From Halopiger xanaduensis SH-6 (GTDB taxonomy: Archaea > Halobacteriota > Halobacteria > Halobacteriales > Natrialbaceae): a stretch of DNA of 64,000 nucleotides. The stretch is from NCBI RefSeq assembly GCF_000217715.1, contig NC_015666.1, positions 694,270-758,269 of the forward strand, read 5' to 3'. The position numbers and the translations under genes were made by a program. The notes beneath the pieces are model-generated. The model saw only the letters and a program-made list of their open reading frames with translations. It was not told the origin of the DNA and did not search any database. This document shows, piece by piece, positions 36,407 to 41,527 of the stretch (position 1 is the stretch's first letter; each line of letters starts with the position of its first letter).

Positions 36407-38101
36407 ATGTCAGATGACGATACTGAATTCACGGGCTCGAACGACGTCGAGGGAGACGATACGCACGGGTTTTCCACGGACTTCGGCGACACCGAGCTCG
36501 GCGACGACGAGCCCAAACAGGGGTTGTTCGACGACCTGCTGAGCGGCGAACCGATCTTCGAGAACAAGGAGGTCCTTCGACCGTCTTACACGCCCCACGA
36601 ACTCCCGCACCGGAGCGACCAGATCAACAAGATGGCGACGATCCTGGTCGCCGCACTTCGCGGCGAGACGCCGTCGAACATCCTCATCTACGGCAAAACA
36701 GGGACCGGCAAGACCGCCAGCGCGAAGTTCGTCAGCAAGGAACTCGAGAGCACCTCCCAGAAGTACAGCGTCCCCTGCGACGTCGAGTACATCAACTGCG
36801 AGGTGACGGACACGCAGTACCGCGTGCTCGCGCAACTCGCGAACAAGTTCATCGAGAAGAACAAGGAGCGCATCGACGATCGGATCGACTCCCTCGAGGA
36901 TCTTCTCGGGGCCATCGAGGAATACGAAGCGGGGAACGATCCGTCCGCCGATGAATCGGAACTCTTCGACTATCCCGACGAGTTAGCCGACGCACCGGAC
37001 GATCCTAATGTTTCAACTGGAGCGGACAATCCGGATACGCCGAACGAATCTCCAGTTGAAACGGAGGGGTATGAAGACGGTGACACCGCGGGAGATTCCG
37101 GTGCTACGGCCGATGGCGCCGCCGAACCGTCTCACCCCCTCGCGTCGACTCCGTTCGACTCGGTAGCCGAGATCGAAGCGCGGATCGAGTCCCTCGAGGA
37201 GGACAAGGATTCGTTCGAAGACGTTCCGATGACCGGCTGGCCGACCGACCGCGTCTACAACGTCTTCTTCGACGCCGTCGACTACGACGAGCGGGTCGTC
37301 GTCATCATGTTAGACGAGATCGACAAACTCGTCGAGAAGAGCGGCGACGACACGCTCTACAACCTCTCGCGGATGAACTCCGAACTCGAGAACTCCCGGG
37401 TGTCGATCATCGGCATCTCGAACGACCTCAAGTTCACCGACTTCCTCGACCCGCGGGTCAAATCCTCGCTCGGGGAGGAGGAGATCGTCTTTCCGCCGTA
37501 CGACGCGAACCAGTTGCGGGACATCCTCGAGCATCGGTCCGACGTGGCGTTCAAGGGCGGCGCGCTCTCCGAGGACGTGATCCCCCTCTGCGCCGCGTTC
37601 GCCGCCCAGGAGCACGGGGACGCACGACGCGCGCTCGATCTCCTCCGAACGGCGGGCGAGCTCGCCGAGCGCTCCCAGGCCGAGACGATCGTCGAGGAAC
37701 ACGTCCGGCAGGCCCAGGACAAGATCGAACTCGATCGCGTCGTCGAGGTCGTCCGCACCCTCCCGACGCAGTCGAAACTCGTCCTCTTCGCGATCATCCT
37801 GCTCGAGAAGAACGGCGTCCACAGCATCAACACGGGCGAGGTGTTCAACATCTACAAGCGCCTCTGCGAGGAGATCGACGCCGACGTCCTCACCCAGCGG
37901 CGGGTGACGGACCTCATCAGCGAACTCGACATGCTGGGGATCGTCAACGCCGTCGTCGTCTCGAAGGGACGCTACGGCCGCACGAAGGAGATCAGCCTCT
38001 CGGTGCCGCTCGAGGAGACGGAAGCAGTGCTGCTCTCCGACTCCCGGCTTTCCGACATCGACGACATCCAGCCGTTCGTGCAGGCGCGGTTCGAGAACTG
38101 A
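36407..38101 (+). CDS. orc1: Orc1/Cdc6 replication initiator
   Basis: This 564-residue AAA+ initiator binds ORBs and loads the replicative helicase. Walker A GKTGTGKT is at residues 95-102, Walker B VIMLDEIDKL at about 300-308, and the sensor-1/2 regions and a C-terminal winged helix (VLTQRRVTDLISELDMLGIV, about 485-515) follow. An acidic insertion (about 170-255) separates the Walker motifs and carries the origin-box-like DNA at 37011-37070. The ATG at 36407 (MSDDDTEF) is preferred over an upstream GTG at 36392 that overlaps ORB copy 4. Position next to oriC marks it as the cognate initiator. Confidence 0.96.
   Translation: MSDDDTEFTGSNDVEGDDTHGFSTDFGDTELGDDEPKQGLFDDLLSGEPIFENKEVLRPSYTPHELPHRSDQINKMATILVAALRGETPSNILIYGKTGTGKTASAKFVSKELESTSQKYSVPCDVEYINCEVTDTQYRVLAQLANKFIEKNKERIDDRIDSLEDLLGAIEEYEAGNDPSADESELFDYPDELADAPDDPNVSTGADNPDTPNESPVETEGYEDGDTAGDSGATADGAAEPSHPLASTPFDSVAEIEARIESLEEDKDSFEDVPMTGWPTDRVYNVFFDAVDYDERVVVIMLDEIDKLVEKSGDDTLYNLSRMNSELENSRVSIIGISNDLKFTDFLDPRVKSSLGEEEIVFPPYDANQLRDILEHRSDVAFKGGALSEDVIPLCAAFAAQEHGDARRALDLLRTAGELAERSQAETIVEEHVRQAQDKIELDRVVEVVRTLPTQSKLVLFAIILLEKNGVHSINTGEVFNIYKRLCEEIDADVLTQRRVTDLISELDMLGIVNAVVVSKGRYGRTKEISLSVPLEETEAVLLSDSRLSDIDDIQPFVQARFEN
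37011..37070. repeat. origin-box-like inverted pair inside orc1
   Basis: TTTCAACTGG at 37011-37020 faces CCAGTTGAAACGGAGGGGT at 37052-37070. The right half, with one more C and T on its left, is identical over 21 bases to the one inside the DP1 gene and shares 13 bases with ORB copy 1. It encodes VSTG and PVETEG in the disordered insertion of Orc1. Confidence 0.8.
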
Positions 38102-38238
38102 TACTGAACTGATTCTCCGCCCCTTGCACGCGTCGTTTCGAGTCGAACGCCCGCTTCCGTTCGCGAATTCGCACAGCCCGGTTTTCATCGACGCAGCGCC
38201 AGCGAAGGACCGATATACGAGGCGTGGCTTCGTCCGGT

Positions 38239-38706
38239 ATGAACCGACGTACGGTCCTCGCCGCGACCGGGGCGGTCGGCCTCGGCTCGCTCGCCGGCTG
38301 TCTGTCCGACGTGATCGGCTCCCAGGGTCACGACTACGAGCGCGGCACCATCGACGTCACCGTCAACGGCGAGCCGATCGATCTCGAGGCCCCGCGGTTT
38401 CAGGCCGAGAACGCCGACAACTCCTCCATGGATTTTCACCTCCACGAGGGCCACGAACACTGGTACATGGAGGGGGACCGGGTGACGTTCGCGGAAGGGA
38501 TCGATCTCCTCCCCCACTTCGCCTACGAACAGATGGACGGGGCCCACGTCGTCACGATCGACGGGACGGTCTACGACGGACGCGACGACGAGACCGACAT
38601 CGCGTTCACCGTTAACGGCGATGAGGTCGACCCAACCGAAACCGAGATCCACGACGGCGATTCCTTACAACTCGAGGTGACGACGGACGAGGCGAGCGAC
38701 GACTGA
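38239..38706 (+). CDS. predicted Tat/lipoprotein of unknown function
   Basis: This 155-residue exported protein has a twin-arginine start (MNRRTVLAATGAVG) and a lipobox LAGC, so it is a probable lipid-anchored surface protein. The mature part repeats VNGEPIDLEAP and VNGDEVDPTETEI, two related beta units separated by a His/Glu-rich HLHEGHEHWYMEG that could bind metal. GATATACG 25 bases before the ATG supports a leaderless start at 38239. The function is unknown. Confidence 0.82.
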   Translation: MNRRTVLAATGAVGLGSLAGCLSDVIGSQGHDYERGTIDVTVNGEPIDLEAPRFQAENADNSSMDFHLHEGHEHWYMEGDRVTFAEGIDLLPHFAYEQMDGAHVVTIDGTVYDGRDDETDIAFTVNGDEVDPTETEIHDGDSLQLEVTTDEASDD

Positions 38707-38821
38707 CCGGATCTGTCGATCTCTCGAGAGAGCCGCCTGTTTCTCGAGCCGCGATTTCTCGCGCGAGCCGTTCGAGTAGAAGGAGAGTAACCAGGCGCGA
38801 ACGCGAGGGGCCCGACGAGAG

Positions 38822-39775
38822 TTACCGACGAGACCGACCGATCGCGGCCGCAGCGGTCCCGGCAGCGATTCCGGTTCCCGTTCCGATGCCGGCGCTGGCT
38901 CCGACTCCGTCGACGGCAGCCGGTCCGTCCGGGCCGCCGGTGAGCTGCGGCGAGGCGGAGTCCAGTCCCGCGTCCCAGACCGCCGGAGACGGCGCAATTG
39001 TCCCGCTGAACAGCTGATCGAACGCCAGCCGGATGTGGCCGAGCCACGGGATACGGAACGTCGCCTTCCCGGTGACCCACTCCGGCTTGACGACGGTGCT
39101 GACGCTGTTGCCGAACTGGTCGTAGCCGTTGTTGTTGTCGCCCTTCGTGACGAAGCCGTCGTGGGGCGCGGGACAGGTTCGGACCTGTTCGCAGGTTACG
39201 GCGCCGGTGATCTCCTCGTCGGCCTTGGTGTCGACCCAGTTTTCGCCCTCCTCGACCCAGAAGTGCGCGCGGTGTATCACCGGCGTCTCGTACTCGCTGC
39301 CGTCAGGCCGGAAGATGATGACGTCGCCCGGTCGGTTGAACTTCTCGTAGCCGGTCTCCCGCGCCGTTGCGAGGGTGACGACGCCGGTTCCCTCGACGGG
39401 GTCGTCGCCGACGAACCGGTCGGAGTCGGTGATGAAGATCAGGTCGCCCTTCTGCATGTTTGGCACCATACTCTCGCTCTCGACGGCGACCAGCGGCGGC
39501 CAGATGCCGCTGACCGCGAACAGCAGGAGTCCGACGACGGCGACGATGGCGACGCTGCTCACCACGTCCCGTGCGAGGACGACCGTCTCCTCGTCGGTTC
39601 GCAGAAACCAGCGGACGATGCCGTCGTCCTCGATGGTGACGTCGGCGCCGGACTCGTCCCGGCCTGCGGTCGGTGCGTCGGGCGACCGACCGTCCTGGTC
39701 GCTCGAGCCGCGGCGGGGATCGGCGCCGCCGTCGGTTCGCTCGTCGTCGGAACTACCCGGGTCGGGACCGCTCAT
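38822..39775 (-). CDS. sec11: signal peptidase I (S26B type)
   Basis: This 317-residue protein has an acidic N-terminal tail, one membrane helix (about residues 70-92), the catalytic Ser in VESESMVPNM and the His in VIHRAHFWVEEG. A conserved CPAPHDGFVTKGDNN carries acidic active-site residues. It cuts Sec and perhaps Tat signal peptides outside the membrane. The last 60 residues are Ala/Gly-rich and disordered. A close paralog lies at 56615-57412, differing mainly in both tails. Confidence 0.93.
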   Translation of the reverse strand: MSGPDPGSSDDERTDGGADPRRGSSDQDGRSPDAPTAGRDESGADVTIEDDGIVRWFLRTDEETVVLARDVVSSVAIVAVVGLLLFAVSGIWPPLVAVESESMVPNMQKGDLIFITDSDRFVGDDPVEGTGVVTLATARETGYEKFNRPGDVIIFRPDGSEYETPVIHRAHFWVEEGENWVDTKADEEITGAVTCEQVRTCPAPHDGFVTKGDNNNGYDQFGNSVSTVVKPEWVTGKATFRIPWLGHIRLAFDQLFSGTIAPSPAVWDAGLDSASPQLTGGPDGPAAVDGVGASAGIGTGTGIAAGTAAAAIGRSRR

Positions 39776-39964
39776 TGCTCGGGGTTTTGCCGGGGTCAGA
39801 AATCAACCTTCTGCTCGAGTTGGCTCGTTGCGAGTCGATCGTCACCGTCCGCGACTGTGGGCGGTCGTACTGCTGTCGGTGCCGTACTGCGTGTGACTGT
39901 GAGTGACTCGACCGCCGCGGGGCGTTCCGCTATCCTTTTTGTCTCCGTCGCGAATGCGAGGTGT

Positions 39965-41527
39965 GTGCCGCTCGAGGGCCACGCCCGGATCGTCAGCGAA
40001 CTCACCAGTCGCGGCTACAACGCCGAGCGCGAGGCGGTCACGCAACTGGCGGCCGCGGACGATCCCGACGCGGCGCTCGAGCACCTTCTCGACGAAATCC
40101 CCGACGACGCCCTGGTCGTTCGCAGCGAGCACGTCGAGGCGGCGTTGAACGCGGTCTCGAGTTCTGGGTCATCCCCGCCGACCGAATCGGCCGCCGATCG
40201 CGGGGATCCGACCCCCTCCGTTTCAACTGGAACCGACGCACCCGTGTCGGGCGATTCGGCAACCCACGCTCCAGTTGAAACGGAGGGGTCGGAACCTATC
40301 GAGCGGACCGTCGACGCCGACCTCCGCTCCCTCGAGATCGAGGGCGACATGACCGGCCAGAGCACCGGCACGGGCGAGTACGAGGACTTCGTTTCCGTTT
40401 TCCGGGACCGCCTCGAGCGCCTCGGCTCGAAGCTCCGCGGGCGCGTCAACCACCGCCCGGCGTCGGCCATTCAGGACATGCCCGGCGGCAGCGAGGTCGC
40501 GATGGTCGGGCTGGTCAACGACATTCGGTCGACCGCCAGCGGCCACTGGCTGATCGAACTCGAGGACGCCACCGGGACCTTCCCGTGGCTGGTGATGAAG
40601 GATCGCGACTACGTCGATCTGGTCGACGAACTGCTCTGTGACGAGGCGCTGGCGATGGAGGGAACCCTGGCCGACGACTCGGGGATCGCCTTCGTCGACT
40701 CGATGTACTTCCCGGACGTGCCCCGGACCTACGAGCCGTCGACGGCCGACCGCCACGTCCAGGCGGCGCTGATCAGCGACGTCCACGTCGGCAGCGAGGA
40801 GTTCATGGAAGACGCCTGGAACCGCTTCGCCGACTGGCTCCACACCGAGCAGGCCCGGAACGTCGAGTACCTCCTGCTCGCCGGCGACATGGTCGAGGGC
40901 GTCGGCGTCTACCCCGACCAGGACGAGGAACTCGACATCATCGACATCTACGAGCAGTACGAGGCCTTCAGCGAACATCTGAAGAAGGTGCCGGGCGACC
41001 TCGAGATCGTCATGATCCCGGGCAACCACGACGCGGTTCGCCTCGCGGAACCCCAGCCCGGCTTCGACGAGGAACTGCGGGAGATCATGTCGGCCCACGA
41101 TCCGGAGATCGTGAGCAACCCGTCGACGGTGACCGTCGAGGGCGTCTCCGTGCTGATGTACCACGGCGTCTCGCTGGACGAAGTCATCGCGGAACTCCCC
41201 GAGGAGAAAGCCAGCTACGACGACCCGCACAAGGCGATGTACCAACTGCTGAAGAAGCGCCACGTCGCGCCGCAGTTCGGGGGCCACACCCGGCTCGCGC
41301 CCGAGGAGAAGGACTACCTGGTCATCGACGAGGTGCCCGACATCTTCCACACCGGCCACGTCCACAAGCTCGGCTTCGGCAAGTACCACAACGTGCTCGC
41401 GATCAACTCCGGCTGCTGGCAGGCCCAGACCGACTTCCAAAAGAGCGTCAACATCGATCCCGACGCGGGGTACGCGCCGATCGTCGACCTCGACACGCTC
41501 GACGTCACGGTCCAGAAGTTCAGCTGA
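39965..41527 (+). CDS. polB: DNA polymerase II (family D) small subunit DP1
   Basis: This 520-residue proofreading subunit of the archaeal replicative PolD has an N-terminal helical domain (residues 1-60), a disordered linker (about 65-130) and an OB-fold (about 165-250). The Mre11-like phosphoesterase motifs are LISDVHVGS, LLAGDMVEGVG, PGNHDAVR, YHGVS and TGHVHKLG. The GTG start at 39965 gives MPLEGHARIVSELTSRGYNAERE, the usual haloarchaeal N-terminus; a T-rich TATA-like CTTTTTG sits about 27 bases upstream. The linker DNA holds an inverted pair of origin-box-like sequences. It lies 3.5 kb from oriC. Confidence 0.95.
   Translation: MPLEGHARIVSELTSRGYNAEREAVTQLAAADDPDAALEHLLDEIPDDALVVRSEHVEAALNAVSSSGSSPPTESAADRGDPTPSVSTGTDAPVSGDSATHAPVETEGSEPIERTVDADLRSLEIEGDMTGQSTGTGEYEDFVSVFRDRLERLGSKLRGRVNHRPASAIQDMPGGSEVAMVGLVNDIRSTASGHWLIELEDATGTFPWLVMKDRDYVDLVDELLCDEALAMEGTLADDSGIAFVDSMYFPDVPRTYEPSTADRHVQAALISDVHVGSEEFMEDAWNRFADWLHTEQARNVEYLLLAGDMVEGVGVYPDQDEELDIIDIYEQYEAFSEHLKKVPGDLEIVMIPGNHDAVRLAEPQPGFDEELREIMSAHDPEIVSNPSTVTVEGVSVLMYHGVSLDEVIAELPEEKASYDDPHKAMYQLLKKRHVAPQFGGHTRLAPEEKDYLVIDEVPDIFHTGHVHKLGFGKYHNVLAINSGCWQAQTDFQKSVNIDPDAGYAPIVDLDTLDVTVQKFS
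40211..40290. repeat. origin-box-like inverted pair inside DP1
   Basis: ACCCCCTCCGTTTCAACTGG (40211-40230) and CCAGTTGAAACGGAGGGGT (40271-40289) are near-perfect reverse complements 40 bases apart, G-runs outward. The right copy is identical to that in orc1. They encode SVSTG and PVETEG, in the linker before the OB-fold. Confidence 0.85.

Follow-up and report, generated by a model that had tools for sequence, protein, structure and literature searches.

Why does a 21-nucleotide sequence occur with the same letters in two genes of Halopiger xanaduensis, one encoding an oriC1-type initiator (Orc1) and the other the small subunit of DNA polymerase D (DP1)? A first-pass annotation of the 64,000-nucleotide stretch that we analyzed (the window) had pointed out the identity, and we confirmed it at both places: CTCCAGTTGAAACGGAGGGGT lies at 37050–37070 within orc1 (36407–38101, + strand; an ORF with Pfam Cdc6_C, Cdc6_lid and AAA domains) and at 40269–40289 within the DP1 gene (39965–41527, + strand; an ORF with Pfam DNA_pol_E_B and Metallophos domains and an inferred GTG start). 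By its letters the shared 21-mer belongs to the origin recognition boxes (ORBs) of Orc1. The annotation had counted 13 bases in common with one ORB copy, copy 1, but the likeness is larger, with every invariant position of the oriC boxes (TCCA..YGAAAC..RGGGG) matched, and the 19-mer, at up to three mismatches, has six matches in the window compared with 0.02 expected by chance.

Pattern searches of the whole 4.36-Mb genome with the exact 15-base ORB pattern TCCANNTGAAACNNAGGGG returned six occurrences, all inside 39 kb around oriC, and none for the reversed control. Two are boxes of oriC itself, the left at 35645–35663 (− strand) and the right at 35953–35971 (+ strand), both with an extended G-string; one is in the orc1 linker (37051–37069, + strand); two are in the DP1 gene (40213–40231, − strand, and 40270–40288, + strand); and the sixth lies 38 kb downstream. 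With one mismatch allowed, a further box appeared at 36374–36392 (+ strand), 14 bp before the orc1 ATG, as did two more at +116 kb. The placement of the box before the ATG suggests a possible autoregulatory site of the initiator gene, and similar boxes occupy the same place before orc1 in several relatives.

The DP1 arms and the orc1-linker box all carry the core consensus of the same genome's oriC boxes as an exact pattern, and an inverted partner had been claimed for both copies of the 21-mer. The claim holds for DP1, where the left arm (CCCCTCCGTTTCAACTGGA as read on the + strand) is a perfect inverted copy, over 19 nt, of the right arm (TCCAGTTGAAACGGAGGGG), 38 nt away across an unconserved spacer (40232–40269). 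In orc1 it holds only in part: the partner (GTTTCAACTGGA, 37010–37021, − strand) fits the core-pair pattern, and its 48-bp start-to-start spacing recurs in relatives, but it is a 12-nt core 29 nt away, and the terminal GGGG that closes the orc1 right arm and each of the DP1 arms is missing from it. The two pairs are therefore not equivalent.

To what extent the DP1 pair is conserved was assessed in a set of 79 haloarchaeal loci, comprising the window and its relatives, with one species represented twice. At a threshold of 7 or fewer mismatches over 30 bases, 72 of the 79 loci contained the pair, always in the same reading frame, with start-to-start spacings of 57 bp (n = 66, a gap of 38), 54 bp (n = 3) or 69 bp (n = 3); more 69-bp pairs were met in other genera. 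A strict form of the 57-bp pair (30 bases, three or fewer mismatches) was found in 166 of 394 Halobacteria genomes, which cover 45 of 85 genera; the control gave no match. Among 30 additional genomes, drawn mostly from families without a strict match, most had same-frame pairs in DP1, often with one weak arm. Not every lineage needs both arms, since some keep only a single good one. Searching 231 genomes from the rest of the phylum for the core-pair pattern gave no match, and this absence, together with the wide presence within the class, points to an element that was probably ancestral to the haloarchaeal class and decayed in some lineages. In Natronorubrum texcoconense the DP1 locus appeared on two contigs of one assembly (L055 and L056), probably as overlapping contig ends, and it was counted once in the codon tests.

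The annotation had placed both copies in linkers, in a frame reading VSTG...PVETEG, and at both sites we confirmed this frame and, by Pfam, the location between domains of Orc1 and DP1. Shared peptides of this kind could in principle reflect selection on the linker peptide PSVSTG...PVETEG itself, and it is true that the linkers of the two proteins carry the same peptides. The codons say otherwise. Although the genomes are related, such that the counts are not independent trials, the left arm of the DP1 pair used GTT in 54 of 54 cases (7% expected) and GGA in 70 of 70 (9%), the ACT codon was invariant (66/66; 4%), and the right arm used CCA in 66 of 67 cases (7%), GAA in 71 of 71 (28%) and GGG in 65 of 68 (24%). 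The fixed codons, including GTT, ACT and GGA of the left arm, are mostly rare in these GC-rich genomes. When sites were located by peptide alone, the bias persisted (GGA 63/63, ACT 60/62, GTT 48/48, CCA 62/64 and GAA 66/67). Moreover, where the amino acid had changed the third base had not: valine-to-alanine replacements used GCT (8/8) and threonine-to-serine replacements used AGT (3/3), which is hard to explain other than by selection on the DNA. When the DP1 peptides as they stand were recoded synonymously, the ORB match was destroyed, with a mean of 12.2 mismatches compared with 4.35 observed.

What is free to vary in the box is also what varies in the gene. Base 7 (T or C) varies synonymously in DP1 as it does in oriC boxes, and the residue at the valine position changes (to A, P, L, G, H or D) where the ORB is unconstrained. 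With rare codons frozen, third bases kept despite residue changes and a variable valine, selection at the level of the linker peptide can scarcely be the explanation, and codon use strongly supports the conclusion that the DP1 pair is maintained by selection on DNA. The first-pass annotation had likewise favored a DNA-level element over a shared peptide, and the synonymous drift that it had named as evidence against itself was not seen in the DNA of the DP1 pair. The common frame in orc1 and DP1 is explained by what the other frames give on sequence inspection, one of them reading TGA and another a basic QLKRR.

Selection on DNA might instead preserve a hairpin, in RNA or in DNA, in which the arms pair with each other; in the window they would make a perfect 19-bp stem. 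Full complementarity was found in only 4 of 71 pairs, however, and variable positions showed no covariation except at position 7 (overall p = 0.067, ignoring kinship). With only one arm retained in some lineages, and with single boxes at the tRNA-Gln sites described below, a hairpin is highly improbable. We consider it very probable that the pair is truly a binding element of Orc1 type on whose DNA selection acts.

The orc1-linker box, located by its peptide, was present in 42 of 47 Natrialbaceae-type loci and showed a constraint like that on the DP1 pair, with CCA in 36 of 36, GAA in 42 of 42 and GGG in 42 of 42 cases. Outside the Natrialbaceae-type loci the orc1 linker was short and no box was seen; this box is lineage-specific. 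The two elements had been treated as alike, and their frame is indeed the same, but they are unlike in range and completeness: DP1 has a complete pair throughout the class, whereas the orc1 element is confined to Natrialbaceae-type loci and has a partial left arm. These differing distributions led us to reject a recent event in which one gene acquired the box from the other by duplication or conversion; convergence of both boxes on the ORB consensus would account better for their identity in this genome.

Where do such boxes lie on the chromosome? Exact boxes clustered near oriC and at orthologous places, which speaks against random scatter, the pattern of copies that the annotation had named as counting against its reading; in six chromosomes every exact chromosomal ORB was within 284 kb of oriC. 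A "dispersed chromosomal marker", as the annotation had put it, is not supported in that form: the copies are not numerous, they occupy particular orthologous positions, and in the chromosomes checked none is more than about 290 kb from oriC. DP1 is usually about 4–6 kb from oriC1, and when the gene is displaced, by ~12–13, 25, 37 or 155 kb and to either side of oriC, the pair is still inside it. This persistence from 12 to 155 kb away, on either side, makes improbable an architectural role in which Orc1 would connect oriC with ORB pairs close by and so fold the origin region or tether it, despite the proximity of the sites to oriC and the recurrence of inverted-pair spacings. Across sites those spacings fell at 46–48, 54–57 and 65–71, which is only suggestive of helical phasing.

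Several boxes elsewhere recurred beside particular genes. Many Natrialbaceae have a conserved single ORB, some 20–60 kb from oriC, between tRNA-Gln(CTG) and, mostly, a gene for a rhodanese-like lipoprotein (L006:1501–1519, which is G000:C3:768903 and outside the window; L094–L096, L098–L110, L151 and L152); it has no second G-run. Several genera have one or two direct ORBs in the gap between divergent nmd3-like and htpX-like genes, about 93–246 kb from oriC (L008:1501 and 1609; L112 and L147–L150). In one genus an inverted ORB core pair spaced by 46 bp lies beside a gene that by eye resembles that for the KEOPS subunit Cgi121 (L154:2005–2055, L155:2000–2050 and L156:1970–2020), and in two genomes of another family inverted core pairs (46 and 65 bp) adjoin a upp-like gene (L157:2012–2062 and L162:1971–2040). 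A constant polarity of single boxes with respect to fork direction was considered and rejected, as the nmd3–htpX boxes were inconsistent with it when judged by eye.

Because inverted boxes with outward G-strings are also the arrangement at oriC, the DP1 pair could be read as an accessory origin or helicase-loading site. The ends of the boxes argue against this reading. All 128 oriC boxes of relatives that we collected end in GGGGTGGGG, the extended halophile G-string. In the DP1 arms the terminal GGGGT mostly has a C after it and there is no second G-run; this run is likewise missing from the orc1-linker box, the orc1-start box and nearly all distal boxes; with an ending of GGGGT plus a non-G base, the DP1 arms and the orc1-linker box are not origin-type ORBs. 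ORBs are thus split by their G-string end into origin and non-origin classes. In H. hispanica oriC1, mutating the G-string at either end abolished function (PMC3936714). Nor did we find an AT-rich unwinding element between the inverted DP1 boxes, the 38-bp spacer having an AT fraction of 0.35 compared with 0.32 in the flanks (71 pairs) and the region around 40140–40319 of the window a GC fraction of 0.67–0.68. With neither a second G-run nor an AT-rich spacer, the DP1 pair is probably not an origin; we rejected a second origin at DP1 on these grounds and regard an accessory origin or loading site as very unlikely.

What, then, might Orc1 do at DP1? The best explanation overall, to which we give about an even chance, is that the intragenic pair of Orc1-type ORBs would hold or sense the initiator. 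Orc1 probably binds both boxes, and it would not be expected to open an origin there, since the halophile G-string of the boxes is without its second half and the spacer has no richness in AT. The pair, together with a few other non-origin ORBs near oriC1, would be duplicated soon after oriC1 fires, and the duplicated ORBs would thereby reduce free Orc1 and limit re-initiation; the orc1-start and orc1-linker boxes would add autoregulation. Such control of the initiator pool could well be the main role of the DP1 pair, though we put it somewhat short of even likelihood. The G-strings point outward as at oriC, and initiator boxes cluster outside yet near the origin as at a titration locus, although they are few compared with the 11 of H. 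hispanica oriC2D. With only two to six extra sites, titration of Orc1 may be out of reach, and some lineages have one good arm only. In addition, DP1 retains the pair even at a distance of 155 kb from oriC, so a role linked to DP1 would also fit. The annotation's "titration or relay sites for Orc1" is accordingly plausible but unproven.

The main rival to initiator-pool control is transcriptional control of DP1 and orc1, in which Orc1 would act as a repressor or roadblock from its sites at the start of orc1, in that gene's linker and near the beginning of the DP1 gene, so that the initiator level sets expression of both Orc1 and polymerase D. The box 14 bp upstream of the orc1 ATG, the conserved boxes in promoter-sized gaps, both upstream of the rhodanese-like gene and in the interval separating nmd3 from htpX, and the fact that the pair follows DP1 to each new location are all consistent with it, and Sulfolobus Orc1-2 is known to regulate promoters (PMC9738581). 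However, whereas the orc1-start and distal boxes are placed as in promoters, the DP1 pair is intragenic and at a variable distance from the start region and the catalytic domain of DP1, lying 0–273 nt from the N-terminal domain; moreover, a roadblock needs no fixed inverted geometry, and the proximity to oriC would be left unexplained. We regard transcriptional control as less likely than not; control of DP1 transcription is nevertheless nearly as plausible as initiator-pool control, and both may hold. A broader proposal, to which we give slightly less than an even chance, is that a class-wide, probably ancestral intragenic element would link the availability of Orc1 to the expression of DP1 and the firing of oriC1, and that this element belongs to a small group of Orc1 sites close to oriC that have a consensus of their own (the GGGGTC end).

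ORBs and ORB-based negative control are already known, and the main ORB survey covered only intergenic regions adjoining orc genes (PMC3528665). In the open-licence literature we came across no account of ORBs within DP1 or any other coding sequence, nor of ORBs conserved class-wide inside a polymerase gene. The DP1 pair indicates that surveys limited to intergenic regions next to orc genes overlooked boxes that are strongly conserved in coding DNA, and its preservation as DNA suggests a previously undescribed control site for chromosome replication. How re-initiation is limited in archaea with eukaryote-like initiators is a largely open question, and the pair offers for it a precise site that most haloarchaea conserve: because it can be destroyed by synonymous mutation with the protein unchanged, models of initiator titration and of the initiator as a regulator become directly testable.

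Compared with known systems, the pair resembles in form the haloarchaeal oriC1 ORBs, which have the same TCCA..YGAAAC..RGGGG core and are likewise inverted with G-strings outward. It differs from them in lying inside coding sequence, in having a spacer of 38 bp rather than about 290 bp with a DUE, and in boxes that lack the second G-run and end in GGGGTC. In E. coli, initiator boxes outside the origin restrict initiation, both at datA and through DnaA-box autoregulation; datA, alike in concept and unrelated in protein and sequence, is the closest conceptual parallel to the proposed role. The closest tested precedent for it is oriC2D of Haloarcula hispanica, an ORB-rich region that negatively controls oriC2, likely by titrating Cdc6E (PMC3936714). 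There, as at DP1, an origin and the orc gene that goes with it have extra non-origin ORBs in their neighborhood, but oriC2D consists of 11 intergenic ORBs beside cdc6E and oriC2 (PMC3936714) whereas DP1 has a single intragenic pair, and the DP1 boxes are of oriC1 type and conserved class-wide. Finally, Sulfolobus Orc1-2 is an Orc1-family transcription regulator bound outside origins, at DDRE sites (PMC9738581). A DDRE is a hexamer, ANTTTC, at promoters, whereas the DP1 and orc1 sites are full ORBs, and where Orc1-2 is a non-initiator paralogue, the full ORBs here are probably sites of the initiator itself.
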